Positions 4,500 to 20,173 of a stretch of DNA of 27,642 bases are shown in pieces. Source of the DNA: a virus. Each line of letters begins with the position of its first letter. The stretch's first letter is position 1. Position numbers and translations under genes: made by a program. The DNA lies in IMG/VR virus record IMGVR_UViG_3300012936_000128, positions 1-27,642 of that record; one strand, written 5' to 3'. The notes beneath the pieces are model-generated. The model was not told where the DNA came from. It saw only the letters and a list, made by a program, of their open reading frames with translations, and did no database searches.

Positions 4500-6575
4500 A
4501 TGGCATTAGTCGTAAATGACAGGGTTAAAGAAACCTCTACCACTACTGGTACAGGCACCCTTAATCTTGCAGGAGCAGTTTTAGGTTTTGAAACATTTGT
4601 AGCAGGTATTGGTAATTCTAATACAACTTATTACTCTATCGTAAATGAAAATGGTGAGTTTGAGGTTGGTATTGGTACAGTAACTGACGCTTCACCTGAT
4701 ACTCTATCAAGAACTACAATTTTATCATCGTCAAATAGTGATTCTGCAGTAAACTTTTCTGCGGGCACTAAAGATGTTTTCTGTACTCTTCCTGCATCTA
4801 AATCAGTTATACTAGATGCTAGCGGAAACATTGTTGCAAACAATGGATCTAATTTAACAGCTTTAAACGCAAGTAACTTAGCAAGTGGAACCGTTGCAAA
4901 TGCAAGACTAGACGCAGATCTTGCTGCAATTGGAGGTTTAACATCAGCAGCAGATAAAGGTATTCAATTTACAGGATCAGGAACTGCAGCAACATATGAT
5001 TTAACATCTGCAGGTAAAGCACTTCTTGATGATGCAAACGCTGGTGCTCAAAGAACTACTTTAGGATTAGGAACAGCTGCTGTATTAGATACAGGAATAT
5101 CAAATACAAACGTACCTAAATTTACAAGTGGTGTAGCAGACGATGATTTTTTACGTGTAAACGGAACAGATATTGAAGGACGTTCTGCGAGTGAGGTTCT
5201 TTCAGACATAGGTGGTCAAGCTTCTTTAACTTTTGGAATAGCAAATACTAATGCAGTAAAAATAGATAGTTCATCAGTAGCTGATGATGATTTTGCTCGT
5301 TTTACTGCTAGTGGTTTAGAAGGTAGAAGTAATTCTGAAGTTAGATCAGATCTAGGTTTAGCTGCTTCTGCAACAACTGATACAACAAATGCTAGTAATA
5401 TTAGTTCTGGTACTTTACCAAATGCAAGATTAGATGCACAATTACAAGATGTTGCAGGATTAGCAACAACAGCAGGAAAAATTATTCAAGGTGATGGGTC
5501 AAACTTTGCTCTTTCAGCTTATACACTTCCAACATCAGATGGATCTGCAAATCAAGTTTTAACAACTAATGGTTCTGGAGCTGTTACTTTTGAAACTCCT
5601 ACAACTGGAGATATTACAGGTGTAACTGCAGGATCTGGTTTAACTGGTGGAGGAGCATCTGGTTCAGTTACTTTGAATGTTGGTGCAGGAAATTTAATTG
5701 ATGTACAAGCAGATCAAGTAGATGTAGATCTTTCTGAACTTACAACTTCAACATCAAATGGTGATGGTGATTTTTTTGTTGTGGTTGATTCTTCTAATGC
5801 ACAGAAAAAATTAACTAAAGGTAATATTAATAATTCAGGTTTTAATAATGATGCTGGCTTCACTACAAATACAGGAACTGTAACTAGTGTTGGTATTACA
5901 CCAGGCACTGGATTAGATGCTGGTTCAGCTGTTACAAGTTCTGGTACTATTAGCGTTGATTTAGATTTATCTGAACTTACTGACATGACAGCAACAATGG
6001 CTGGTTCAGATGAATTTATTGTTTTAGATTCAGGAGCAGAGAGAAGAAAAGCAGCTAGTGAAATAGGTTTATCAATCTTTGATAATGACGCTGGATTTAC
6101 TACAAACACTGGAGACATCACAGGTGTTACAGCAGGTAACGGTTTAACAGGAGGTGGTACATCTGGAGGAGTTAGTTTAGCCGTAGGAGCCGGAACTGGT
6201 ATTGATGTTGCAGCAGATGCAGTTTCAGTTGATGTGTCAGATTTTATGGCTAATGGTTCTAACAATAGAGTTGTTACTGCAACTGGCGCTGATGCTATGA
6301 ATGCAGAAGCTAACATGACTTTTGATGGATCTACATTAACAGTAACTGGAGACATTGTTCCAGGAGCTAACGATACTCACGACTTAGGTGCATCAGGAAA
6401 CGTTTGGCAAAACGTATTTACTGGAGACTTACATTTATCTAACGAATCAAAATCTGAAGGTAATGCTGTTGATGGCACTAAAGGTAACTGGACTATTCAA
6501 GAGGGTGCAGAAGATCTTTACATACTTAATAATAAATCTGGTAAAAAATATAAGTTCAAACTAGAGGAAGTTTAA
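4500..6575 (+). CDS. Large repetitive tail fibre protein
   Basis: The product has 691 residues. Residues 1-105 (ALVVNDRVKETSTTTGTGT) form a conserved N-terminal domain seen in tail fibre or baseplate-attached proteins of marine phages, probably the virion anchor. The shaft contains paired repeats: 122-158 with 297-333 (NASN, SGT, NARLDA); 212-239 with 260-287 (VADDDF, EGRS, SEV, SD); 369-392 with 538-561 (DITGVTAG, GLTGGG); and NDAGFTTNTG twice (449-458 and 528-538). The last about 73 residues, from IVPGANDTHDLGASGNVW on, recur at the C-terminus of the 7326-8021 fibre. The whole looks like a trimeric beta fibre with a terminal folding or receptor module. AGGAG at 4489-4493 supports the start. 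Confidence 0.8.
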   Translation: MALVVNDRVKETSTTTGTGTLNLAGAVLGFETFVAGIGNSNTTYYSIVNENGEFEVGIGTVTDASPDTLSRTTILSSSNSDSAVNFSAGTKDVFCTLPASKSVILDASGNIVANNGSNLTALNASNLASGTVANARLDADLAAIGGLTSAADKGIQFTGSGTAATYDLTSAGKALLDDANAGAQRTTLGLGTAAVLDTGISNTNVPKFTSGVADDDFLRVNGTDIEGRSASEVLSDIGGQASLTFGIANTNAVKIDSSSVADDDFARFTASGLEGRSNSEVRSDLGLAASATTDTTNASNISSGTLPNARLDAQLQDVAGLATTAGKIIQGDGSNFALSAYTLPTSDGSANQVLTTNGSGAVTFETPTTGDITGVTAGSGLTGGGASGSVTLNVGAGNLIDVQADQVDVDLSELTTSTSNGDGDFFVVVDSSNAQKKLTKGNINNSGFNNDAGFTTNTGTVTSVGITPGTGLDAGSAVTSSGTISVDLDLSELTDMTATMAGSDEFIVLDSGAERRKAASEIGLSIFDNDAGFTTNTGDITGVTAGNGLTGGGTSGGVSLAVGAGTGIDVAADAVSVDVSDFMANGSNNRVVTATGADAMNAEANMTFDGSTLTVTGDIVPGANDTHDLGASGNVWQNVFTGDLHLSNESKSEGNAVDGTKGNWTIQEGAEDLYILNNKSGKKYKFKLEEV

Positions 6576-6581
6576 TAAGCC

Positions 6582-7289
6582 ATGGCCTTTGGTATAACAA
6601 CTTTTGCAGAAAGTCCTTTTGCTGCAACTGGATCACAAAGCATTAATGTTGCAGTAACTGGTCAAGCCCTTACTTGTAATCAAGGTAATGAAGGGATTGT
6701 TATTGATGTAAACTTTTCTGTAACAGGTCAAGCAATAACTGCTACACAAGGTAATGTTAGTATTTTTTCTGGAGTTGAAGTTCCTGTTAGTGGTCAAGCT
6801 TTAACTTCTAATCTAGGTTCTGTGTCAACTGTTGGAACAGCAGATATTGATGTTACAGGTATAGCATTAACTTCAGCATTAGGAACTGCAACTTTAGACG
6901 CAACAAGTTTTATAGACGTTACTGGTGAAACTATAAGTGCAAATTTAGGAAGTGTTTCTATAGCAGCTAATTCAGATGTTTCAGTAACTGGTCAAGCAAT
7001 ATCTATTAATGAAGGTAATGAAGGGGTTGTCATTGATGTAGATGTTTCTTTATCTGGTCAAGCTGCGACAGCTGCCCTCGGAACAGCTACATTAGACGCA
7101 AATAGTTTGATTGACGTTACTGGTCAAGAAACAACTATGGCACTAGGTCAAGTAGATGCTACAGATTCAAGTGCAGAATTGACTGGAATTTCTATGTCAG
7201 TATCTGTGGGTAGTGTTAATATCATTGCTTGGAGCGAAGTAAATACAGGAACAGCCCCTACATGGACAGAAGTTGACACTGCAGCATAA
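6582..7289 (+). CDS. 22-residue-repeat beta-solenoid-like virion protein
   Basis: This 235-residue protein is almost entirely one repeat. A (T/S)-G pair recurs with Gly at residues 27, 49, 71, 93, 115, 137, 159, 181 and 202: seven intervals of exactly 22 residues and one of 21. The typical unit is VTGQALTxxLGxVxxxxxxxVx. The exact period with no charged core residues suggests a beta-solenoid or stacked-turn fibre. The ends are distinct: an N-terminal cap (MAFGITTFAESPFAA) and a Trp-containing C-terminal segment (AWSEVNTGTAPTWTEVDTAA). It lies between two tail fibre genes, so it is probably a fibre or fibre-linker component. It has only a weak ribosome site and starts 7 nt after the previous stop. 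Confidence 0.65.
   Translation: MAFGITTFAESPFAATGSQSINVAVTGQALTCNQGNEGIVIDVNFSVTGQAITATQGNVSIFSGVEVPVSGQALTSNLGSVSTVGTADIDVTGIALTSALGTATLDATSFIDVTGETISANLGSVSIAANSDVSVTGQAISINEGNEGVVIDVDVSLSGQAATAALGTATLDANSLIDVTGQETTMALGQVDATDSSAELTGISMSVSVGSVNIIAWSEVNTGTAPTWTEVDTAA
6642..7229 (+). repeat. Nine 66-bp coding repeat units (22 aa)
   Basis: The DNA encodes nine consecutive units of 66 bp (the last interval 63 bp). Units 1 and 6 resemble each other most (both carry NEG, VIDV), as do units 4 and 7 (both carry ALGTATLDA), which implies block duplications of whole units rather than single-unit slippage. Confidence 0.75.
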
Positions 7290-7325: not shown

Positions 7326-8021
7326 ATGGCTAATAGCACATCAGCAAATTTAAAGTTAACTGTTCAAACAACAGGAGAAAACTCAGGAACTTGGGGACAG
7401 TTTACTAATACAAATTTATTAATTTTGGAACAAGCCATTGGTGGTTACGATTCAATTGGAATTACAGCGGCAGCAACTTTAACTTTTTCAAATGGTGTTT
7501 TATCAAATGGTAAAAATCAAGTTCTAAAATTAACTGGAACTATTTCTGGAAATAAAAATGTAGTAATTCCAGATGGAATAGAAAAAACTTATTTAGTTGA
7601 AAATGCTACAACAGGAGCACACACTGTAACATTTAAAACTAGTTCTGGAACAGGTGCAACTTGGGCAACTACAGACAAAGGTTTTAAAATATTATATTCA
7701 GATGGAACTAATGTTGTAGATGTTACAGCTGACTTAGGTAATATTACTACAGCAGCAATTACTTCAGGTGCTATAACAGCTTCAGGTAATATTTTACCTG
7801 GTTCAAATGATACTTTTGATTTAGGAGCATCTGGAAATGTATGGAGAAACGTATTTACTGGAGATTTACATTTATCTAACGAGTCAAAAGATCAAGGAAA
7901 CATGATAGATGGAACCAAAGGCAACTGGACTTTGCAAGAAGGAAAAAATGATATATTTATGATTAATAATATATCTGGAGAAAAATTTAAAATAAAATTA
8001 GATAAAGTTGGAGATTCATAA
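7326..8021 (+). CDS. Tail fibre protein, short, with shared C-terminal module
   Basis: The product has 231 residues. The N-terminus (TSANLKLTVQTTGENSGTWG, then NTNLLILEQAIGGY) is a recurrent virion-attachment domain of marine phage and cyanophage tail fibres. Residues 50-135 are beta-rich. From about residue 155 (NILPGSNDTFDLGASGNVW) to the end it matches the C-terminal module of the 691-residue fibre. At the DNA level 40 of 42 bases agree between 6411-6452 and 7848-7889, and both differences are silent. This supports recent exchange or duplication of the module. The stop and the next start overlap by one base (TAATG), so the following adhesin is probably translationally coupled. Confidence 0.75.
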   Translation: MANSTSANLKLTVQTTGENSGTWGQFTNTNLLILEQAIGGYDSIGITAAATLTFSNGVLSNGKNQVLKLTGTISGNKNVVIPDGIEKTYLVENATTGAHTVTFKTSSGTGATWATTDKGFKILYSDGTNVVDVTADLGNITTAAITSGAITASGNILPGSNDTFDLGASGNVWRNVFTGDLHLSNESKDQGNMIDGTKGNWTLQEGKNDIFMINNISGEKFKIKLDKVGDS

Positions 8022-9316
8022 TGGGTATAAATTCATGTGGAACTACAATGTTAGACCAAGGAGTCTTTAATAATATTGGTACTGTTACTTGGGACACTAC
8101 AGCTAAAACTTCAAATTTTACGGCTACGTCAGGAAGTGGTTTTTTTGTTAATACTACTTCTGGAGCAATTACAGTAACACTCCCTAGTTCACCCTCGGCT
8201 GGTAATATCGTAGCTATTAAAGATTATGCAAACACAGCTGACACTAATAATATTACAATTGATAGAAATGGATCTAATATCAGAGGATCAGCATCAAATG
8301 CTGTACTTGATACCGAAGGAATATCAATTTTTTTAGTTTATGTTGATGGAACACAAGGTTGGCGACCAACTAATTCTGCGAAAAAAAGTGATCTTGCAGG
8401 TCCTTTTATAGAAGCCACTGGTGGGACAATTACAGAATCTGGAGATTTTAAAATTCATACTTTTACATCTCCAGGAACATTTTGCGTAACAAATGCAGGT
8501 TTACCCTCTGGATCAACTACAGTAGATTACATGGTTGTAGCTGGTGGTGCAGGTGGTGGAGGAGATAATGGTTGTGGATCTGGTGGTAGCGGCGGTGGAG
8601 GAGCTGGTGGATTTAGAGAATCCCATTCTACCCCAGTTTCAGGTTGTTATACAGCAAGTCCTTTAGCAACTCCGACGGCTTTACCTGTTTCTGTACAAGG
8701 TTATCCAATAACTGTTGGCGCTGGTGGAACTGGAGGTTGTGTTTCTAATCCAGGTGGTTCTGGTGCTAACTCTGTATTTTCAACAATTACATCTGCAGGC
8801 GGTGGAGGCGGTGGTAGATTTAATAGAACATCAAACACAGGCGGTTCTGGTGGTGGACAGGGTGCAAATAATGGAAGCGGACAAACAACAGGTTCAGCAG
8901 GTAATACACCACCTGTAAGTCCACCTCAAGGTAACAAAGGTGGTAACAGTATGAGTTTCGGAGGTGGTCCTGGAAGAGGTTCTTCTGGAGGTGGCGGAGC
9001 AACTGCAGCAGGGACGAATAATCCATCGGGAACTGATGGAACTGCTGGAGGAGCAGGAGCAACAACAAATATCACAGCATCACCTGTAGCTTACTCTGGA
9101 GGTGGTGGAGGCGGTGGCTGGAACGGAGCTTCTGCAGGCTCAGGTGGAACTGGTGGTGGTGGAGCTGGTGGATCAACTGCACCTGGTAGTAATGGAACTG
9201 CAAACCGTGGAGGAGGTGGTGGCGGTGCAGGCCCTACAAATGTTGGAGGAACTCCTGCTAGACCAGGTGGAACGGGTGGTTCTGGAATAGTAGTAATAAG
9301 GTATAAATTTAAATAG
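8021..9316 (+). CDS. Glycine-rich tail adhesin, paralog 1 of 3
   Basis: The product has 431 residues. Residues 1-125 form a beta domain shared with the next two genes (MGINSCGTT, TTAKTSNFTA, LPSSPSAG, DYANTADTN, RNGS, LVYVDGTQGW). Residues 130-172 (ATGGTITESGDFKIHTFTSP) lead into a long glycine-rich region (173-418) with runs of Gly and interspersed Ser, Ala and Thr, plus Cys at several positions (C155, C185, C209 and others). The protein ends GGSGIVVIRYKFK. Gly-rich phage adhesins such as S16 gp38 form polyglycine-II lattices that display variable loops to the host receptor; a similar role here is inference. The ribosome site is GGAG at 8010-8013. NTPPVSPPQGN (295-305) is conserved in all three paralogs. 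Confidence 0.75.
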   Translation: MGINSCGTTMLDQGVFNNIGTVTWDTTAKTSNFTATSGSGFFVNTTSGAITVTLPSSPSAGNIVAIKDYANTADTNNITIDRNGSNIRGSASNAVLDTEGISIFLVYVDGTQGWRPTNSAKKSDLAGPFIEATGGTITESGDFKIHTFTSPGTFCVTNAGLPSGSTTVDYMVVAGGAGGGGDNGCGSGGSGGGGAGGFRESHSTPVSGCYTASPLATPTALPVSVQGYPITVGAGGTGGCVSNPGGSGANSVFSTITSAGGGGGGRFNRTSNTGGSGGGQGANNGSGQTTGSAGNTPPVSPPQGNKGGNSMSFGGGPGRGSSGGGGATAAGTNNPSGTDGTAGGAGATTNITASPVAYSGGGGGGGWNGASAGSGGTGGGGAGGSTAPGSNGTANRGGGGGGAGPTNVGGTPARPGGTGGSGIVVIRYKFK

Positions 9317-9324
9317 GTAAAATT

Positions 9325-10578
9325 ATGGGTATAAATTCTTGTGGAACAACATTAATAAGTGATGGTAAATTTGCAAACATAGGTGCAGTTTCTTGGGAAA
9401 CAACAGCTAAGACATCTAATTTTACAGCAGCATCAGGAGAAGGGTATTTTGTAAATACTACATCTGGTGCAATTACAGTGACACTACCTAGTTCACCTTC
9501 TGCAGGAGATATTGTCGGAGTAAAAGATTACGCTAACACAGCAGATACAAACGCTATAACAATTGCTAGAAATGGATCTAATATTGATGGTGCAGCTGCA
9601 GATAAATTATTAATTATAGAAGGAGAAGCTGTATTATTAGTTTATGTAGATGGCACTAAAGGTTGGTTAGTTACAAATGCATCACAAGCAGATGATCTTA
9701 CAAACCCTTTTGTAGCAGCTACTGGTGGAACAATTACTTGTTCAGGAAATTTTAGAATCCATACTTTCACAAGTCCAGGTACTTTTACAGTAACAAATGC
9801 AGGTTCACCCTCTGGATCAAATACAGTTGACTATTTAGTAATCGCTGGTGGAGGTGGTGGCAGTAATGGTGGAGGTGGAGCAGGTGGATATAGAGAATCT
9901 TCTGGTGCAGCCTCTGGCTGTTATTCAAGATCACCTTTAGGTGCCTGTGTTTCAGCTTTACCAGTCTCTGCTCAAGGTTATCCAATAACAGTTGGCGCTG
10001 GTGGTGCTGGAAGTGGTTGTACAAGTAACCCAGGATCAAATTCAATTTTTTCAACTATTACATCTACTGGTGGTGGAGGACAAGATGATACTACCCCTGA
10101 TAGAGAAGGTGACGATGGTGGATCAGGTGGTGGAGGTGGAGGTAATAGAAATAATAGTGGTGGTTCAGGTAACACACCACCTGTAAGCCCTCCACAAGGA
10201 AATAATGGTGGTGCAGGTCAATCACCAGGCCCTTCGTTTGTAGGAGGCGGTGGTGGCGGTGGAGCAACAGCTGCAGGTACTCCAGGAATGCCTGGAAATA
10301 CAGGAAATGGTGGTGCCGGAGCAACATCAAGTATTAATGGAACACCTACTGCAAGAGCAGGTGGAGGTGGTGGAACTGGTGATAACCGTTCTCCAGCAGC
10401 ACCTGGTGGTACAGGTGGAGCTGGTGGTGGTGGAAATGGCGGAACTCCTCCTTCTGGAGGAAACACATCTGGAGCTGCAGGAACAGCTAACACTGGTGGT
10501 GGCGGTGGAGGTAAAGGTGTTGGATCAATCACAAGTGGTGGTAGCGGAATTGTAATAATAAGGTATAAGTTTCAATAG
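9325..10578 (+). CDS. Glycine-rich tail adhesin, paralog 2 of 3
   Basis: This 417-residue protein is collinear with its upstream neighbour: MGINSCGTT start, SPSAGDIVGVKDYANTADTN, VYVDGTKGWLVTN, ATGGTITCSGNFRIHTFTSP, then a glycine-rich region from about residue 173 to 404 and a GGSGIVIIRYKFQ ending. The N-terminal 170 residues are strongly conserved, whereas the Gly-rich region differs in length and in the residues between Gly runs; it contains GNTPPVSPPQGN at 282-293. It starts 8 nt after the previous stop, with the same TAGGTAAAA junction seen before paralog 3, so the intergenic DNA was duplicated with the gene. It is likely a receptor-binding fibre tip. Confidence 0.75.
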   Translation: MGINSCGTTLISDGKFANIGAVSWETTAKTSNFTAASGEGYFVNTTSGAITVTLPSSPSAGDIVGVKDYANTADTNAITIARNGSNIDGAAADKLLIIEGEAVLLVYVDGTKGWLVTNASQADDLTNPFVAATGGTITCSGNFRIHTFTSPGTFTVTNAGSPSGSNTVDYLVIAGGGGGSNGGGGAGGYRESSGAASGCYSRSPLGACVSALPVSAQGYPITVGAGGAGSGCTSNPGSNSIFSTITSTGGGGQDDTTPDREGDDGGSGGGGGGNRNNSGGSGNTPPVSPPQGNNGGAGQSPGPSFVGGGGGGGATAAGTPGMPGNTGNGGAGATSSINGTPTARAGGGGGTGDNRSPAAPGGTGGAGGGGNGGTPPSGGNTSGAAGTANTGGGGGGKGVGSITSGGSGIVIIRYKFQ

Positions 10579-10588
10579 GTAAAAAATT

Positions 10589-11755
10589 ATGGGAATAAAT
10601 TCAAGTGGAACATCAGTAATAGATCAAGGTAAGTTTCAAAACATAGGTGCAATTACTTGGGACACAACCGCAAAAACATCTAATTTTACAGCTACATCAG
10701 GAAATGGTTTTTTTGTAAATACAACTTCAGGAGCTATTACAGTAACTCTACCTTCTTCACCAAGTGCAGGAAGTGTGGTTGGTGTTGCTGATTATGCAAA
10801 TACTGCAGATACAAATAATATTACAATAGCTCGTAACGGTTCTAAAATTCAAGGCTTAACTTCAAATCTTATAATGTCAAAAGAGGGTTTATCTATTTTA
10901 TTAATTTATGTAGATGCAACACAAGGATGGTTATCAATTGATGCTGCAGAAGCAAATGATCTTGATAGAGCAGAATTTGTAGCAGCGACTGGTGGTACAA
11001 TAACTACCTCACCTTGTGGTGATTTTAAATTACATACTTTTACAGGCCCAGGTACTTTTTGTGTATCTAGTGCAGGTAATTCTTTTGGTTCAAATAAAAT
11101 AGATTATTTAGTTGTTGCTGGAGGAGCCTCAGGAGCAGGACCTGGAGGAGTTGCTGGTGGCGGAGGAGCTGGTGGTTTTAGAACTGCTTCTTGTTCTCCA
11201 GTATCAGTTCAAGGATATCCAGTAACTGTAGGTGGAGGTGGTTCAGTAAATCCTAGTAATGCAAGGGGTGGTTCTGGAAGTAATAGTGTTTTTAATTGTA
11301 CTACATCAGCTGGAGGCGGTGGCGGTGGTTTAAACGTACCAGGAGCTTCTGCAGCATCAGGTGGATCTGGTGGAGGTGGTGGTGGAGATAATATAAATAC
11401 TAGTGGAGCCGCTGGAAACACTCCACCTGTTAGCCCATCTCAAGGTAATCCTGGAGGAAACGGAGGAGGACCAAATCAAGGTGCAGGTGGTGGAGGTGGA
11501 GCAGGTGCTACAGGTTCTAATAATTCTGGAGGAAGTGGTGGACCTGGAGGTAATGGATCACCTTGGCCAGGAAACTCAACTACTTATGCAGGCGGTGGTG
11601 GTGGCGGTCGAGTCAGTGGATCTGTAGGAACAGGTGGAACTGGTGGTGGAGGAACTGCAAATTCAACCGCAGGAACAGCCAATACTGGCGGTGGAGGTGG
11701 AGGTAAACGAGCTGGTGGATCAGGAGTAGTTATAATTAAATATAAATTTCAATAG
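10589..11755 (+). CDS. Glycine-rich tail adhesin, paralog 3 of 3
   Basis: The product has 388 residues and is the shortest of the three. It starts MGINSSGTS (the early Cys of the other two is Ser here), keeps TTAKTSNFTA, LPSSPSAG and DYANTADTN, and has FVAATGGTITTSPCGDFKLHTFT before the glycine-rich part. It lacks the SGCY...PLA-type insertion present in the other two before PVSxQGYP. GNTPPVSPSQGN is at 276-287, and the end is VVIIKYKFQ. The Gly-rich region is the most diverged of the three. It is probably a receptor-binding adhesin diversified from a shared ancestor. The terminal stop is followed by a 39-nt gap with a good ribosome site for the next gene. Confidence 0.75.
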   Translation: MGINSSGTSVIDQGKFQNIGAITWDTTAKTSNFTATSGNGFFVNTTSGAITVTLPSSPSAGSVVGVADYANTADTNNITIARNGSKIQGLTSNLIMSKEGLSILLIYVDATQGWLSIDAAEANDLDRAEFVAATGGTITTSPCGDFKLHTFTGPGTFCVSSAGNSFGSNKIDYLVVAGGASGAGPGGVAGGGGAGGFRTASCSPVSVQGYPVTVGGGGSVNPSNARGGSGSNSVFNCTTSAGGGGGGLNVPGASAASGGSGGGGGGDNINTSGAAGNTPPVSPSQGNPGGNGGGPNQGAGGGGGAGATGSNNSGGSGGPGGNGSPWPGNSTTYAGGGGGGRVSGSVGTGGTGGGGTANSTAGTANTGGGGGGKRAGGSGVVIIKYKFQ

Positions 11756-11794
11756 TTGAATGATAATTAAAAATAATATATAAGGAGAAATATT

Positions 11795-12244
11795 ATGGCA
11801 CATTTTGCAAAACTAGGAGCTAACAGTAAAGTTATTCAAGTATTAACTCTTGATAACAAGGACATGTTAAATGCTGATGGTGTTGAAGATGAATTAGTAG
11901 GTCAACAATATTTAGAACAACACAATAATTGGCCTGCACAAATGTGGATTCAAACATCTTACAATACATCTAACAATGAACATAAATTAGGTGGAACACC
12001 TTTAAGAGGTAACTACGCAGGTATTGGTTATATTTGGGATGAAGATAATCAAATTTTTTGGCCAAAACAACCTTATCCTTCATGGGTAAAATTAATTGCA
12101 GAAGCAAGATGGCAGTCTCCAATAGGTGATATGCCAGCATTAACTCAAGAACAACAAGATCAAAACACGGCTGATACTCACTCGTGGGAATATTCTTGGA
12201 ATGAAGATAACACAACCTGGGACTTGACAGATTTAAAAGCATAA
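11795..12244 (+). CDS. Conserved virion-associated protein of marine phages, unknown function
   Basis: This 149-residue protein starts MAHFAKLGANSKVIQVLTL and contains MWIQTSYNT, RGNYAGIGYIWDED, PYPSWVK and a C-terminal Trp-rich stretch (SWEYSWNEDNTTWDLTD). I recognise this layout from small proteins beside fibre genes in cyanophages and other marine phages, without a known biochemical role. The many Trp and Tyr residues and the lack of catalytic motifs suggest a beta-sheet binding or structural protein, possibly carbohydrate-contacting (inference). AAGGAG (11782-11787) lies 7 nt before the ATG. It closes the adhesin block and precedes the oxygenase genes. Confidence 0.6.
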   Translation: MAHFAKLGANSKVIQVLTLDNKDMLNADGVEDELVGQQYLEQHNNWPAQMWIQTSYNTSNNEHKLGGTPLRGNYAGIGYIWDEDNQIFWPKQPYPSWVKLIAEARWQSPIGDMPALTQEQQDQNTADTHSWEYSWNEDNTTWDLTDLKA

Positions 12245-12262: not shown

Positions 12263-12766
12263 ATGCAAAAGAAAGTATTAAGCGAACAATCTTTATATTA
12301 TGGTGATGTAGCAATGCCTAAAGATTGGGACATTGACCGAGATAAATTATTACAAGATATTTTAAGTTATTCATTTACAAATAAAGAATTCCCTTTTTCA
12401 AAAACATGGGACATGTTAAATACATATATAAAAGACCATGTTCGTGTTGAGCATGATCTTAGTTTAATTAATAAAAATTCTTGGGGAGATATATACAAAC
12501 CAAGTCAGTTATCAAAACCTTTATTAGATGTAGATCCAGTTGATCTTAGAAATTCACCTGATTTTACAATGCTTTATGGAGTTAATGTAAATAATTGTTG
12601 GATTAAAATATATTATGAAGACAATAGACGTAAAGGCAGAAGTTGGGACATAGAACTTACTAATAACAAATTTATTATTTTTCCTGCTACTAACATGTAT
12701 ACAATATCTAATGAACAGAAAGATAATTTAAATTTTATTCAGACAATAACTTATGAATATATCTAA
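12263..12766 (+). CDS. Conserved protein, possibly a degenerate 2OG/Fe(II)-type beta-helix protein
   Basis: The product has 167 residues. The N-terminal part (EQSLYYGDVAMPKDWDIDRD) and the middle are helical and charged. The C-terminal 60 residues (LYGVNVNNCWIKIYYEDNRR, SWDIELTNNKFIIFPATNMY, FIQTITYEYI) have the strand order and the IIFP turn seen at the end of 2OG/Fe(II) oxygenase barrels. However, the His expected a few residues after FP is absent and no H-x-D pair is visible. Catalysis by that mechanism is therefore unlikely. It overlaps the first clear oxygenase by 14 nt, so the two are translationally linked. It could be a partner, a regulatory paralog or unrelated. Confidence 0.5.
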   Translation: MQKKVLSEQSLYYGDVAMPKDWDIDRDKLLQDILSYSFTNKEFPFSKTWDMLNTYIKDHVRVEHDLSLINKNSWGDIYKPSQLSKPLLDVDPVDLRNSPDFTMLYGVNVNNCWIKIYYEDNRRKGRSWDIELTNNKFIIFPATNMYTISNEQKDNLNFIQTITYEYI

Positions 12767-13391
12767 TTACTATTGGTATTTTACATCTGCAATACCTCCT
12801 AAAATTTGTGACGATATAATTAGATATGGATTATCTAGATCTGAACAAGTAGCTAGAACCGGTGGTTATGAAGATAAAAAACTAACTAATGATCAAATTA
12901 AAAATATGAAAAAGAAAAGAAATTCTAATTTAGTTTGGTTAAATGATCCATGGATATATAAAGAATTACATCCCTATATTCATAAAGCTAATAAAAATGC
13001 AGGTTGGAATTTTGAATGGGATAGATCAGAGTCTATGCAATTTACAAAATATAAATTAAATCAATACTACGATTGGCATTGTGATAGTTGGGACAAACCT
13101 TATGACAGAAAAAATGTAAATCATCCTGAACACAATAAAATTAGAAAACTTTCTATGACTTGTCAATTAACAGATGGATCAGAATATGAAGGTGGAGAAT
13201 TAGAATTTGATTTTAGAAATTATGACCCACACATGAGGGAAGAAATTAAACATTTAAGACAAGCAAAAGAAATATTACCTAAAGGTTCTATTATTGTATT
13301 TCCCTCATTTGTATGGCACAGAGTTAAACCAGTTACGAAAGGAGTAAGATATTCATTGGTTATGTGGAACCTTGGATATCCTTTTAAATAA
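12753..13391 (+). CDS. 2-oxoglutarate/Fe(II)-dependent oxygenase (prolyl-4-hydroxylase-like)
   Basis: This 212-residue protein has the complete facial triad in the right order: H109-x-D111 (YYDWHCDSW), a GGELEF strand at 148-153, then the distal His H189 (IIVFPSFVWHRV) and R199 ten residues on (GVRYSLV) as the likely 2-oxoglutarate anchor. The family couples decarboxylation of 2-oxoglutarate to hydroxylation of a substrate, using Fe(II) and oxygen; the subgroup resembles PKHD/prolyl-hydroxylase-like enzymes. The substrate cannot be read from the sequence. It is the first of three such enzymes directly after the adhesin genes, suggesting action on virion proteins or on host surface molecules (inference). 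It overlaps the previous gene by 14 nt. Confidence 0.85.
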   Translation: MNISNYYWYFTSAIPPKICDDIIRYGLSRSEQVARTGGYEDKKLTNDQIKNMKKKRNSNLVWLNDPWIYKELHPYIHKANKNAGWNFEWDRSESMQFTKYKLNQYYDWHCDSWDKPYDRKNVNHPEHNKIRKLSMTCQLTDGSEYEGGELEFDFRNYDPHMREEIKHLRQAKEILPKGSIIVFPSFVWHRVKPVTKGVRYSLVMWNLGYPFK

Positions 13392-13392
13392 T

Positions 13393-14025
13393 ATGATAAT
13401 AAATGAATATTTTAGAACCCCTATATGGATTGAACAAAAACCAGAGTTTGTAAAATCTTTAAATAAAGCTTCTAATGAATATATAAAAGAAGCTAAAAAA
13501 AGAGAAAAAGATTATATAAAAGAATATGGTGACTTTGGAAGAAGTTACCATTCTACTGCTCTTATTAATGATAATAAATTTTTAGATTTTAGAAATTATA
13601 TAGGTCAAAAATCATGGGAGTTTTTAGATTGGCAGGGTTTTGATATGCATGAATATCAAACTATGTTTAGTGAGATGTGGGTACAAGAGTTTGCTAAAAA
13701 AGGTGGTGGTCATCATTCTGCACATATACATTGGAACCAACACGTATCAGGTTTTTATTTTTTAAAAGCAAGTGATAAAACTTCTTTTCCTATATTTCAC
13801 GAACCAAGAACCGGGGCACGTGCAACTAAATTAAAATTAAAAAATAACAAAGGTATTTTTCATGGAACCGAACTTATACATTTTAAAGTAAAACCTGGAA
13901 TGTTAATTATATTTCCAGGTTATTTAGAACATGAATATGCAGTAGATCATGGTATAGAACCTTTTAGATTTATACATTGGAATATACAAGCTGTACCAAA
14001 ACAAATGGCTAAAGATGTCTTTTAA
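13393..14025 (+). CDS. 2OG/Fe(II) oxygenase of the DUF/PF13759-like type
   Basis: I chose the ATG at 13393, one base after the upstream stop, over the ATG at 13372 because MIINEYFRTPIW is how members of this family usually begin. The product has 210 residues. The motif HSAHIHWNQHVSGFYFL (H111, H113, N115) is the signature of the putative 2OG-Fe(II) oxygenase family with an HxH-type ligand set. A distal His, H180 (IIFPGYLEHEY), and R192 (FRFIHW) follow at the expected spacing. The reaction is presumably hydroxylation; the substrate is unknown. It is a different subfamily from its neighbours, so the three oxygenases are not simple tandem duplicates. Confidence 0.8.
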   Translation: MIINEYFRTPIWIEQKPEFVKSLNKASNEYIKEAKKREKDYIKEYGDFGRSYHSTALINDNKFLDFRNYIGQKSWEFLDWQGFDMHEYQTMFSEMWVQEFAKKGGGHHSAHIHWNQHVSGFYFLKASDKTSFPIFHEPRTGARATKLKLKNNKGIFHGTELIHFKVKPGMLIIFPGYLEHEYAVDHGIEPFRFIHWNIQAVPKQMAKDVF

Positions 14026-14638
14026 AAAAAATAAATACACAGTTATTAGACAAGCTATTTCAAAAGATTTAGCTACGTTTGTTGCAAATTATTTTTGTAT
14101 GCAAAAACAAGTATATGATACTTGTAGACAGGCTAGATACTTTTCACCGTTTGAAAATATAATAGGTCACTACGAAGCACACGATGAGCAAATTCCAGAT
14201 ACATATAGTCAGTATGCAAATATAGCTATGGAAACTTTAATGTTAAAATGTCAACCAGCTATGGAAAAAACAACAGGGTTAAAATTATATCCTGCATATA
14301 CATATGCAAGGATTTATAAAAAAGGTGATGAACTTAAAAGACACAAAGATAGATTCTCTTGCGAGATATCTACTACTATGAATTTAGGTGGTGATGATTG
14401 GCCGATATATCTTGAACCATCTGGAAAAGAAGGTAAGAAGGGTATTAAAGTAGATCTAAAACCTGGAGATATGTTAGTTTATTCTGGTTGTGAATTAGAA
14501 CATTGGAGAAATAAATTTAAAGGCAAAGAATGTGTGCAAGTATTTCTTCATTATAACAACTGTAAAACACCTGGAGCAAAAGAAAATATGTTTGACAAAA
14601 GACCACATTTAGGACTTCCATCTTGGTTTAAAAGGTAG
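14015..14638 (+). CDS. 2OG/Fe(II) oxygenase, third of the cluster
   Basis: The product has 207 residues. Ligands are H110-x-D112 (ELKRHKDRFSCEIS) and H163 (YSGCELEHWRNKF). GDMLVYSG precedes the distal His as in typical double-stranded beta-helix oxygenases. The C-terminal strand VQVFLHYN lacks the usual Arg after the distal His, so the 2-oxoglutarate contact may be made by another residue such as K168 or K171. Similar proteins are frequent in T4-like cyanophages, to my knowledge with unknown substrate. It overlaps the previous gene by 11 nt and is followed directly by a long hairpin, which probably ends the fibre-oxygenase transcript. Confidence 0.8.
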   Translation: MSFKKNKYTVIRQAISKDLATFVANYFCMQKQVYDTCRQARYFSPFENIIGHYEAHDEQIPDTYSQYANIAMETLMLKCQPAMEKTTGLKLYPAYTYARIYKKGDELKRHKDRFSCEISTTMNLGGDDWPIYLEPSGKEGKKGIKVDLKPGDMLVYSGCELEHWRNKFKGKECVQVFLHYNNCKTPGAKENMFDKRPHLGLPSWFKR

Positions 14639-18131: not shown

Positions 18132-18362
18132 ATGAAAGACGAAGATATATTAAAAATAAATTGTACAACTACAGTGACATATAGAAACACTGCAACCAAT
18201 AAAGTTTATAAAGATGAAGCTGAGAAAGATGCGGATATAGCTGATCCAAATACTTCAACAACAGTTGAACAAATTGCATCAGATGTAAAAGTAGAAGTTT
18301 CGCCGAAAGGATTGAACGTACTACAGAAAATACTTGATGATAACAAAAAATCAGACACCTAA
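18132..18362 (+). CDS. Small acidic/lysine-rich protein, unknown
   Basis: The product has 76 residues. It begins MKDEDILKINCTTTVTYRNT, has an acidic middle (DEAEKDADIADPNTS) and ends with a helix (GLNVLQKILDDNKKSDT). I do not recognise it. It starts 2 nt after the previous stop and its last 26 nt overlap the ATG of the glycosyltransferase gene, so it may mainly serve coupled translation; a ribosome site within its 3' end is weak. Confidence 0.5.
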   Translation: MKDEDILKINCTTTVTYRNTATNKVYKDEAEKDADIADPNTSTTVEQIASDVKVEVSPKGLNVLQKILDDNKKSDT

Positions 18363-19284
18363 AGGTGGTACAGAGTTACAGTTTGAATTTTTGAAAAAAA
18401 ACGTTGATTCAAAATTATTGGATCAAGTTCAAATATGTACATCAGTGCCAGAGAAAATTCCTTTGCACCCAACCAAAGTAAATATACTTTGGCAAAAAAA
18501 TTCTTACGACCAACCTAATCTTGCACCATGGTTTGAAGATCAATCTAATCATAACAAATATGATTGGTATGTATTTAATAGCCATTGGACGTATGAAAAG
18601 TTTAGAACATATTTTAAATTACCAACTGAAAAATGTGTAGTTATAAAAAATGGAATAGAAAATATAGAACCCATACAAACAACATATAAAAAAGAACAAC
18701 CTATAAAAATTATACATCAAAATACACCTTGGAGAGGATTAAATGTTTTATTAGGAGCAATGCAATTAATAAAAAATCCATTAATTACATTAGATGTATA
18801 TTCTTCTACAGAAGTATATGGACAAAAATTTTATGAACTAAATGATAAATACTATCAAACACTTTATGAACAAGCAGAATTTTTACCAAATGTAAATTAT
18901 ATAGGTTATAAATCAAATGAATACATAAGAAAAAATTTAAAAAACTATAGAATGTATGCATACCCAAGTACGTTTGAAGAAACATCTTGTATATCTTTAC
19001 TAGAATGCATGGCTGCAGGTTTGTATTGTATAACAACAAATTTAGGTGCATTATTCGAAACAGGCGCAGAATTTCCTATTTATATTCCTTATACAGATAA
19101 CTATAAATTACTTGCTACTAAATTTGCTAAAGCTATAGAAGAAGCTGCAGAATCTTTAGATAGCGATATAGTAAATGAACATTTAAAATTTCAAATAAAA
19201 TATACAAACAAATATTACAATTGGAACAAACAAAGTATAGCTTGGACAAGATTTTTACAGGGAGTAATTAATGAAAGAAAATGA
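18337..19284 (+). CDS. GT-B (GT4-like) glycosyltransferase
   Basis: I chose the ATG at 18337; a TTG one codon upstream is also possible. The product has 315 residues. The N-terminal Rossmann lobe opens with PKGGTELQFEFL, the glycine-rich acceptor-side loop of GT4 enzymes. VVIKNGIE (101-108) marks the lobe junction. The C-terminal lobe carries the nucleotide-sugar motif E-x7-E (E215 to E223) in YPSTFEETSCISLLECMAAG, followed by ITTNLGALFE. Such enzymes transfer a sugar from a nucleotide donor with retention. The N-terminal lobe is shorter than in bacterial homologs of about 370 residues. The acceptor is unknown. It lies inside the virion operon and overlaps the second glycosyltransferase by 14 nt. 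Confidence 0.8.
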   Translation: MITKNQTPKGGTELQFEFLKKNVDSKLLDQVQICTSVPEKIPLHPTKVNILWQKNSYDQPNLAPWFEDQSNHNKYDWYVFNSHWTYEKFRTYFKLPTEKCVVIKNGIENIEPIQTTYKKEQPIKIIHQNTPWRGLNVLLGAMQLIKNPLITLDVYSSTEVYGQKFYELNDKYYQTLYEQAEFLPNVNYIGYKSNEYIRKNLKNYRMYAYPSTFEETSCISLLECMAAGLYCITTNLGALFETGAEFPIYIPYTDNYKLLATKFAKAIEEAAESLDSDIVNEHLKFQIKYTNKYYNWNKQSIAWTRFLQGVINERK

Positions 19285-20173
19285 ACCTATTTGGTTTGAT
19301 AAAAAACAAGAATTAAATAAAGACACTTATCAAACTGTAAAAACTAACACTGTAGTTACAGAGATAAATTTAAGTAATGAACCTAAATATAAAATTATGG
19401 TATGCACACCATGTCACTCTGATGTGTCTATGCATTACGCACAAGCTACATTAAAATTTCAACAAGAATGTTTAAGAAATAATATATTAGTTAGTTTTAC
19501 ATTATTAAAATCATCTTTAGTTACACAAGGTAGAAATTTATGTGTGTCAGAATTTATTAGTCATGAACACAAATATGAACATTTGTTGTTTATAGATTCA
19601 GATATTGATTTTGAATATGAAACAATTATAAAAATGATAGAGGCTGATAAAGATGTTATAGCTTGTCCATATCCAATGAAAACAATTAATGAAGATAAAA
19701 TGTGGACAACGTTAACAGAAAAATATGAAAATATTAGAAATAAAAGTGACGTTATAAAATCATCTTATATGTTTCCTTTAAAGGTAAAAGATAAAAATTG
19801 CATAACAGTAGATAACGGAATTATGGAAGCAACTCACGTGCCTACAGGATGTATGTTAATAAAAAGACATGTCTTAGAAAAAATGATAAAAAATCATCCT
19901 GAACTAGAAATATATCAACCTACTATTATAAATGGAGAAGAAACTAAAAAAGATTATTTTTACAATTTATTTGATACCTTACATGATCCAGATACTAAAA
20001 GATATTATGGAGAAGATTTTGGTTTTTGTCAAAGATGGAGAGACATGGGTGGTCAGGTATTTGCCTATGTATCTGACTATATAACACATGTTGGAGAACA
20101 CTCTTATTGTGCCCGTTTCTTAGATGAATTACAGTCTTTAAAACGTATTGACGATGACGAAAAAATCAAATAA
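19271..20173 (+). CDS. GT-A (GT2-like) glycosyltransferase
   Basis: The product has 300 residues. A GT-A fold is indicated by KIMVCTPCHSDVSMHYAQ (41-58), LVTQGRNLCVSEF (83-95) and the DxD metal/nucleotide site D109-S-D111 in LLFIDSDIDF. THVPTGCMLIKRHVL (188-202) and YGEDFGFCQRWRDMGGQVFA (246-265) supply the acceptor-side acidic pair E248-D249. It resembles phage and cyanophage family-2-type glycosyltransferases. The first about 38 residues are an extra charged N-terminus. GGAG at 19260-19263 gives a ribosome site inside the previous gene. The pairing with a GT-B enzyme suggests two sequential sugar additions (inference). Confidence 0.8.
   Translation: MKENEPIWFDKKQELNKDTYQTVKTNTVVTEINLSNEPKYKIMVCTPCHSDVSMHYAQATLKFQQECLRNNILVSFTLLKSSLVTQGRNLCVSEFISHEHKYEHLLFIDSDIDFEYETIIKMIEADKDVIACPYPMKTINEDKMWTTLTEKYENIRNKSDVIKSSYMFPLKVKDKNCITVDNGIMEATHVPTGCMLIKRHVLEKMIKNHPELEIYQPTIINGEETKKDYFYNLFDTLHDPDTKRYYGEDFGFCQRWRDMGGQVFAYVSDYITHVGEHSYCARFLDELQSLKRIDDDEKIK

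Follow-up and report, generated by a model that had tools for sequence, protein, structure and literature searches.

Three tandem genes for probable adhesins

The window, by which we mean the whole stretch of 27,642 nucleotides of the IMG/VR virus record IMGVR_UViG_3300012936_000128, carries between positions 8021 and 11755 three consecutive genes encoding related glycine-rich, adhesin-like proteins, all three on the plus strand. The gene order of the tail-fibre region of this 27.6-kb record matches that of Pelagibacter phage HTVC023P and of the genome 023Pt_psg01: around the tail-fibre / 2-oxoglutarate-Fe(II) (2OG-Fe(II)) oxygenase block, the succession of up_3370, up_4035, stalk, adhesins, phrog_7759, dn_12263 and oxygenases is kept in MN698239 and MW574966. 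This gene order identifies the window as a piece of an HTVC023P-type pelagiphage genome. Its host, assigned by relatedness, would be SAR11; the replication genes fall outside the 27.6-kb fragment. HTVC023P-type phages have been described as widespread viruses of SAR11, which is among the most abundant marine bacterial groups (PMC9599517). The main text of a large survey of these phages makes no mention of tail fibers or glycine-rich proteins (PMC9599517), and a literature search, with most subscription journals outside its reach, found no paper on tandem glycine-rich adhesins in pelagiphages. Two other contigs from this phage population, each assembled independently, show the three-gene arrangement too.

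Gene 1, in the first position (8021..9316, 431 amino acids), gene 2, in the middle position (9325..10578, 417 amino acids), and gene 3, in the last position (10589..11755, 388 amino acids), are intact open reading frames. Each of the three proteins belongs to the family PF21722 (Gly_rich_2), with 78.7, 49.9 and 68.8 bits respectively against a cut-off of 24.3 (E 8.6e-22, 5.4e-13 and 9.2e-19), and because each of them passes this cut-off the similarity among them is not due to chance. Their N-termini match the phage tail families phrog_972, phrog_958 and phrog_23412, plus phrog_31104; the matches of gene 1 are to phrog_2295, phrog_31104 and phrog_972.

Divergence is uneven along the proteins. 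Over the first 172 or so aligned residues, identity among the three is 68-72% and there are no more than 3 gap columns, while in the C-terminal part identity falls to 56-63%, or 41-54% where neither residue is a glycine, with 38-50 gap columns; the glycine-rich C-terminal domains thus differ in both length and sequence. The block NTPPVSP(P/S)QGN is present in all three proteins, which end in RYKFK, RYKFQ and KYKFQ. The first-pass annotation had described a shared N-terminal domain of about 170 residues, this block, a (R/K)YKF(K/Q) terminus and glycine-rich regions diverged in length and in residues, and the alignment bears out all of these; uniform divergence, which would have told against that description, is not what we see.

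Age of the duplications

The same annotation had concluded from the near-identical junctions ahead of genes 2 and 3 that whole units were duplicated. The junctions TAGGTAAAATTATGGG and TAGGTAAAAAATTATGGG are real and near-identical: TAGGTAAAATTATG (9314..9327) and TAGGTAAAAAATTATG (10576..10591), on the plus strand, each consist of a stop, an AGG which is plausibly a ribosome-binding site, and the start of gene 2 or gene 3. A recent duplication of whole units, on the other hand, has to be rejected. Where the proteins of genes 1 to 3 have identical residues, their codons agree in only 48-61% of cases, close to the expectation from codon usage, and synonymous sites are near saturation among the adhesin copies. 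Since the codon agreement for shared residues is about what codon usage alone would give, the paralogs are old. The same junction, moreover, recurs ahead of later copies in many relatives. Given this recurrence, the near-random codon agreement and the resemblance of the AGG to a ribosome-binding site, identical junctions are no sign of a recent duplication.

Predicted fold

We modelled the protein of gene 1 as a monomer with AlphaFold2, from an alignment of 45 relatives, and compared the model with known structures (Foldseek/VIA). The predicted local distance difference test score (pLDDT) of the model is 85.5 and falls below 50 only at residues 1-18 and 119-122. Residues 20-126 are predicted to adopt the XD1 fold: they superpose on residues 78-184 of CBA120 TSP4 (7REJ; Z 16.5, 1.6 Å over 105 residues, 28% identity) and also on T4 gp10 (Z 11.7) and gp9 (Z 10.9), and a sequence profile likewise matches TSP4 and T4 gp10 (E 5e-13). 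In TSP4 the XD1 domain sits between linkers at residues 76-79 and 179-188, has gp9 as its closest relative, and has been suggested to be a spacer between interacting modules (PMC8825819). Residues 141-431, TNF (tumour necrosis factor)-like and glycine-rich, match the distal, receptor-binding part of the Pam3 fibre gp24 (7YPX; Z 15.1, 190 residues, 2.8 Å, 26% identity) and, with Z 15.5, the tail tip of Bxb1 (9D93). Receptor recognition in Pam3 has been assigned to its TNF-like and glycine-rich domains (PMC9608196). The model holds a single XD domain, with the glycine-rich core directly after it and neither XD2 nor XD3. On the plus strand, the predicted XD1-type attachment domains lie at 8078..8398 in gene 1 and, by alignment to its residues 20-126, at 9382..9702 in gene 2 and 10646..10966 in gene 3; the predicted receptor-binding cores lie at 8441..9313, 9745..10575 and 11018..11752 respectively.

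The first-pass annotation had likened these proteins to adhesins of the S16 gp38 type. They do look like phage adhesins, but S16 gp38 is set aside as the nearest structure: the core comes closest to Pam3 gp24 and to the tail tip of Bxb1, the N-terminus to XD1 as found in TSP4, gp9 and gp10. Its structure 6F45 is not among the Foldseek and fold-comparison matches of the gene 1 model, an absence which does not exclude a likeness of the cores, and the model has no helical attachment domain of the gp38 type, its N-terminus being an all-beta XD1. Glycine-rich adhesins have been described as host-range determinants in haloarchaeal viruses (PMC8651126). We also considered Halorubrum HF2 as a functional anchor. 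In the literature it is the HF1-490 group (_490 in HF2) which is treated as the receptor-binding protein; the Gly_rich_2 gene of HF2 is HrrHF2_520, not _490, and this anchor was dropped.

N-terminal domains, cores and position in the array

The N-terminal domains and the cores evolve separately and under different rules. We labelled each copy by its position in the array, as given by contig context, and counted the changes of label on trees by Fitch parsimony. In the lineage of the window, the N-terminal tree needs only 3 changes, as against a mean of 16.5 and a minimum of 10 in 2000 shuffles; the core tree needs 16, when 16.5 are expected. N-termini and cores differ in the same way in 43 arrays of the HTVC023P lineage, with 34 changes for the N-termini (61.3 expected, minimum 52) and 57 for the cores (61.2 expected). 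The excess of identity between copies of the same position, calculated in windows of 40 residues, is strong as far as residue 130 or so, with z reaching 10.9; beyond this, little or none of it is left, so that it ends at about residues 130-140.

In the N-terminal tree built with IQ-TREE, all 15 first-position copies form one clade (ultrafast bootstrap, UFBoot, 97), all 17 last-position copies form another together with one other tip (UFBoot 100), and 5 of the 6 middle-position copies form a third (UFBoot 95); gene 2 of the window falls in the middle-position clade and gene 3 in the last-position clade. The odd tip comes from locus L021: in its relatives with two copies, it is the last one that the second copy of L021 matches. 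Positions are mixed in five supported clades of the core tree; when nested clades and the label of L021 are discounted, two to three of these are independent events.

Selection acts on all copies. In same-position comparisons, the median ratio of nonsynonymous to synonymous substitution (dN/dS) of the N-terminal domain is 0.26 in the first, 0.22 in the middle and 0.26 in the last position, and that of the core is 0.34-0.45; the synonymous distances are large (0.7-1.0) and these values are approximate.

Core exchange and copy number among relatives

The closest case of core replacement concerns the window itself. Compared with the near-clonal contig 3300029309_000588 (L086), the window shows only 10 mismatches up to 11.1 kb. 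In the core of gene 3 (11109-11752, 644 bp) there are 144 of them (22%), and in the 329 bp which follow, 13. The recombinant tract thus spans 11102..12010 on the plus strand, its left break lying within 11102-11128, at the start of the glycine-rich region, and its right end at 12010 at least; coverage on the right of the tract is thin, as the other contig stops at what corresponds to 12081. Another contig, 3300030101_004360, carries the window's allele, with 15 mismatches in 12.2 kb.

Both flanks are available for the pair L010 and L011, which are 99% identical in the first gene and 97% in the N-terminus of the last, then 70% in the last core and 91% in the downstream gene, before returning to 98-99.5%. 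The same pattern is found, to varying degree, in the pairs L119/L121, L031/L050 and L224/L282. Cores also move between positions: the middle-gene core of L004 is 99% identical to the first-gene core of L058, their N-termini being 81% identical. L034 and L040 are 99.8% identical over 3.1 kb from 30 nucleotides ahead of the stop of the last adhesin and have different arrays, and L021 and L177 are 99.6% identical through the second gene and then unlike in copy number. The expected exchange of the glycine-rich region among relatives is therefore found both between near-identical phages and between array positions.

The number of copies at the locus varies as well, as the first-pass annotation had anticipated. 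Among the loci fetched, 128 complete arrays lie between the same upstream and downstream genes, and 85 of them are distinct by length signature; these hold one, two, three, four or five copies in 20, 16, 40, 7 and 2 cases respectively. In the window's own sublineage, where the adaptor gene lies directly upstream, one, two and three copies occur in 17, 12 and 7 arrays. As the loci were sampled by similarity, these counts are not population frequencies. HTVC023P (gp59-gp62) and 023Pt_psg01 have at the same locus four and three tandem copies with the same flanking genes; unlike the window, they have other cores and no adaptor gene directly upstream, and their copies are annotated as hypothetical or structural only.

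Several unusual forms were seen. HTVC023P has a fifth Gly_rich_2 gene outside its array (gp70, MN698239 46546-47283, 308 amino acids). In L064 (3029-5842) one open reading frame of 938 amino acids joins two adhesin units in frame with no stop between them, either a natural fusion or a sequencing error. In L021 (5921-6304) an N-terminal domain of 128 amino acids without a glycine-rich core has intact copies on both sides; it is either what remains of a unit or a mounting domain on its own. In the cultured pelagiphage HTVC033P (MZ892993 32861-34215), three annotated hypothetical proteins have DNA similarity to the array, and such genes may therefore extend beyond the HTVC023P group.

Neighbouring genes

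Directly upstream of the array lies a conserved gene for an adaptor or stalk protein of 231 amino acids (7326..8021, plus strand), the likely mount of the adhesins. In HTVC027P, the other HTVC023P-type phage in culture on the same host, the genes gp68-gp70 (L339 7542-9832) hold an adaptor-XD1 fusion and a tail-collar-domain protein in place of the glycine-rich array. The fusion, gp69, joins in one protein the N-terminal domain of the window's adaptor (133 residues; 68% identity over 135) to an XD1 domain (45% identity to gene 1 over 85), and both parts fall in phrog_31104. This fusion suggests that the protein of 7326-8021 and the adhesin N-termini are physical partners.

The 231-aa protein and the 691-aa protein encoded at 4500-6575 have a common C-terminal module, DLGASGNVW.NVFTGDLHLSNESK...DGTKGNW..QEG...NN.SG.K.K.KL, so that a second set of related fibre-like ends precedes the adhesin array. 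The counterparts of the 691-aa protein range from about 113 to 700 amino acids among relatives. Between these two fibre genes, 6582-7289 encodes a short-repeat protein of 235 amino acids (VTGQALT...LGSV), variable in relatives and without a family match.

On the other side, a conserved gene for a 149-aa protein of phrog_7759 (11795..12244, plus strand) stands directly 3' of the complete arrays counted and closes all those examined; it is found in many aquatic phages (cyanophages, roseophages, methylophages). The protein is a possible assembly helper. We tried it as a chaperone like Pam3 gp25 and set this aside, its model (pLDDT 73) having no convincing match in the PDB and the protein no Pfam family. 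The gene diverges alongside the last core in some swaps (91% in L010/L011, 86% in L031/L050), but L034 and L040 keep an identical copy behind different arrays, and hence the coupling is not general.

Further downstream, 12753-14638 holds adjacent 2OG-Fe(II) oxygenase-like genes, among which extra DNA is sometimes inserted in relatives (L006, L031, L050). At 18334-20173, a glycosyltransferase group 1 gene (18334-19284) is followed by a gene for a 300-aa protein without a Pfam match; this pair possibly modifies glycans of the host surface or of the virion.

Interpretation

We think it probable that the locus is an ordered multi-adhesin array, that is, a set of receptor-binding proteins in which each position has its own type of mount, the cassettes can be exchanged, and variation arises through homologous recombination. 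The three genes would encode receptor-binding proteins, probably homotrimeric short fibres. The XD1-type domain at the N-terminus, which is specific for the gene's place in the array, would fasten each adhesin to the virion, its probable anchor being the adaptor protein of 7326-8021. The distal loops of the TNF-like/glycine-rich domain would bind the host surface. Phages infecting one cell together would exchange the core cassette through homologous recombination, at an unchanged position or a new one, with the conserved N-terminal and 3'-end DNA serving as homology; such a process agrees with the mosaic tracts and with breaks that lie near conserved ends. Gain and loss of units would give one to five copies. 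The phage would in this way show an ordered set of specificities, one of which could be changed without disturbing the others. A stronger form of this proposal is one which we hold about as readily as we doubt it: the mounts would have specialised long ago for the first, middle and last places on the virion, the cassettes would come from a pool common to phages and places, and host specificity would be combinatorial, with ordinary homologous recombination altering a single place in each step.

Several points weigh against the ordered array. The AlphaFold2 model is a monomer built from 45 sequences, and its residues 1-18, possibly the actual contact, are of very low confidence. The core trees are less resolved than the N-terminal trees, and saturation could explain part of the missing positional signal, although three independent changes of position have good support. 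Contigs may be chimeric, and this is possible for the swap nearest to the window, which is found near the end of a contig (L010/L011 does not share this weakness, having both flanks). Lastly, HTVC027P, isolated on the same host strain as HTVC023P (HTCC1062), has a Collar-domain protein at the locus; the array is thus not needed for infecting SAR11 as such, and other solutions exist in its place.

The alternative which survives best, although we consider it unlikely, is that the proteins form hetero-trimers, or an end-to-end stack in one mixed fibre, the whole array being one composite adhesin and not a set of several specificities. Paralogous domains could indeed co-assemble, and a stack with a fixed order, comparable to the branched tailspike complex of CBA120, would suit position-specific N-termini. 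However, arrays of one to five copies occur with the same flanking genes, which means that a fixed composition is not required, and the related Pam3 gp24 is a homotrimer.

Still less probable is a silent reservoir, in which one copy alone would be used or important at a time and the others would serve for gene conversion of the active one. The movement of cores between positions (L004 and L058) and the N-terminal remnant of L021 could be read in this way. Against it, the N-termini keep their positional identity over the long term and every position is under purifying selection, which argues against silent copies; the copies are intact, most of them with their own junction resembling a ribosome-binding site; and where a core has clearly changed position, two different phages are involved and not two copies within one genome, the cores of the window being only 56-63% identical to one another. 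The first-pass annotation had offered the display of several specificities and a reservoir for recombination as alternatives, but the two are not equal. The lasting positional identity of the N-termini and the dN/dS of 0.22-0.26 at all positions favour the use of all copies in the virion, with the cores also forming an exchange pool.

Neutral divergence of repetitive glycine-rich DNA by slippage, instead of selected module exchange, is very improbable. Runs of glycine codons are prone to slippage and loop-length changes do occur: an in-frame segment of 69 bp (8598..8666, plus strand) of gene 1 is absent from the near-identical contig L003, as seen in the aligned segments and in the sequence itself. 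Slippage cannot, however, yield cores 70-78% identical between flanks 97-100% identical, nor join N-termini of 81% identity to cores of 99% identity, and the dN/dS of the cores indicates constraint. As for targeted diversification, by a diversity-generating retroelement or a site-specific inversion, the concentration of variation in one domain is what one would expect of it, but we reject it as scarcely credible: no reverse transcriptase (RVT_1) and no serine recombinase or resolvase was found in the window (whose own genome is incomplete), in HTVC023P, in 023Pt_psg01 or in three long related contigs, these five records including two complete genomes; all adhesin copies are on one strand, without the opposed copies of an invertible tail-fibre switch; and the variation takes the form of mosaic tracts with indels reaching into the next gene, not of substitutions at a fixed template.

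The receptor-binding proteins of HTVC023P-type phages have so far been unannotated, and the locus names likely ones and gives their domain map. It is an apparent way for a phage to vary which cells it grips. Three questions can now be put to the test: do phages with several adhesins have a general host range, can one core alone account for a difference in host range between near-clonal strains, and by what means do marine phages that lack dedicated machinery for diversification keep up with the varying surfaces of SAR11? As the separation of mounts and cores is visible from sequence alone, binding cassettes can be catalogued from metagenomes.

Comparison with known systems

The metaviromic islands of marine phages are alike in that host-recognition genes are the most variable, with a conserved N-terminus and a variable C-terminus (PMC3909814). 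They were described from read recruitment, in HTVC010P-like phages and for tail-fibre/C1q genes, and are not tandem glycine-rich arrays with positional mounts. In gp38 of the S16 type, glycine-rich motifs alternate with variable loops (PMC6851490), as in the window; unlike the window's proteins, gp38 is a monomer which sits on the gp37 fibre; it attaches to gp37 through a helical domain and has a polyglycine-II sandwich on a central beta-helix. Pam3 gp24 would share with the modelled adhesin the distal TNF-like and glycine-rich receptor-binding fold (PMC9608196), but it is the sole fibre protein of its phage, with an alpha-helical baseplate dock and the dedicated chaperone gp25, where the window has an XD1 mount and a multi-copy array.

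By its working principle, the nearest system is the tailspike complex of the Ackermannviridae (CBA120 TSP1-4). The differences are clear. The binding modules of the window are glycine-rich/TNF-like and not beta-helical depolymerases; its copies, one to five in number, are close paralogs of one family, in a podovirus of SAR11; and the XD2 and XD3 domains, which bind partner spikes, are not seen, so the array is not a member of that complex. What the two have in common is that receptor-binding genes stand side by side, that they are built on conserved gp10-like XD mounts, and that modules are exchanged between phages and between tailspike types (PMC8825819, PMC8432352, PMC11414711); the window shares with this complex the XD1 fold of TSP4, as predicted, and the exchange of modules between phages and between positions.

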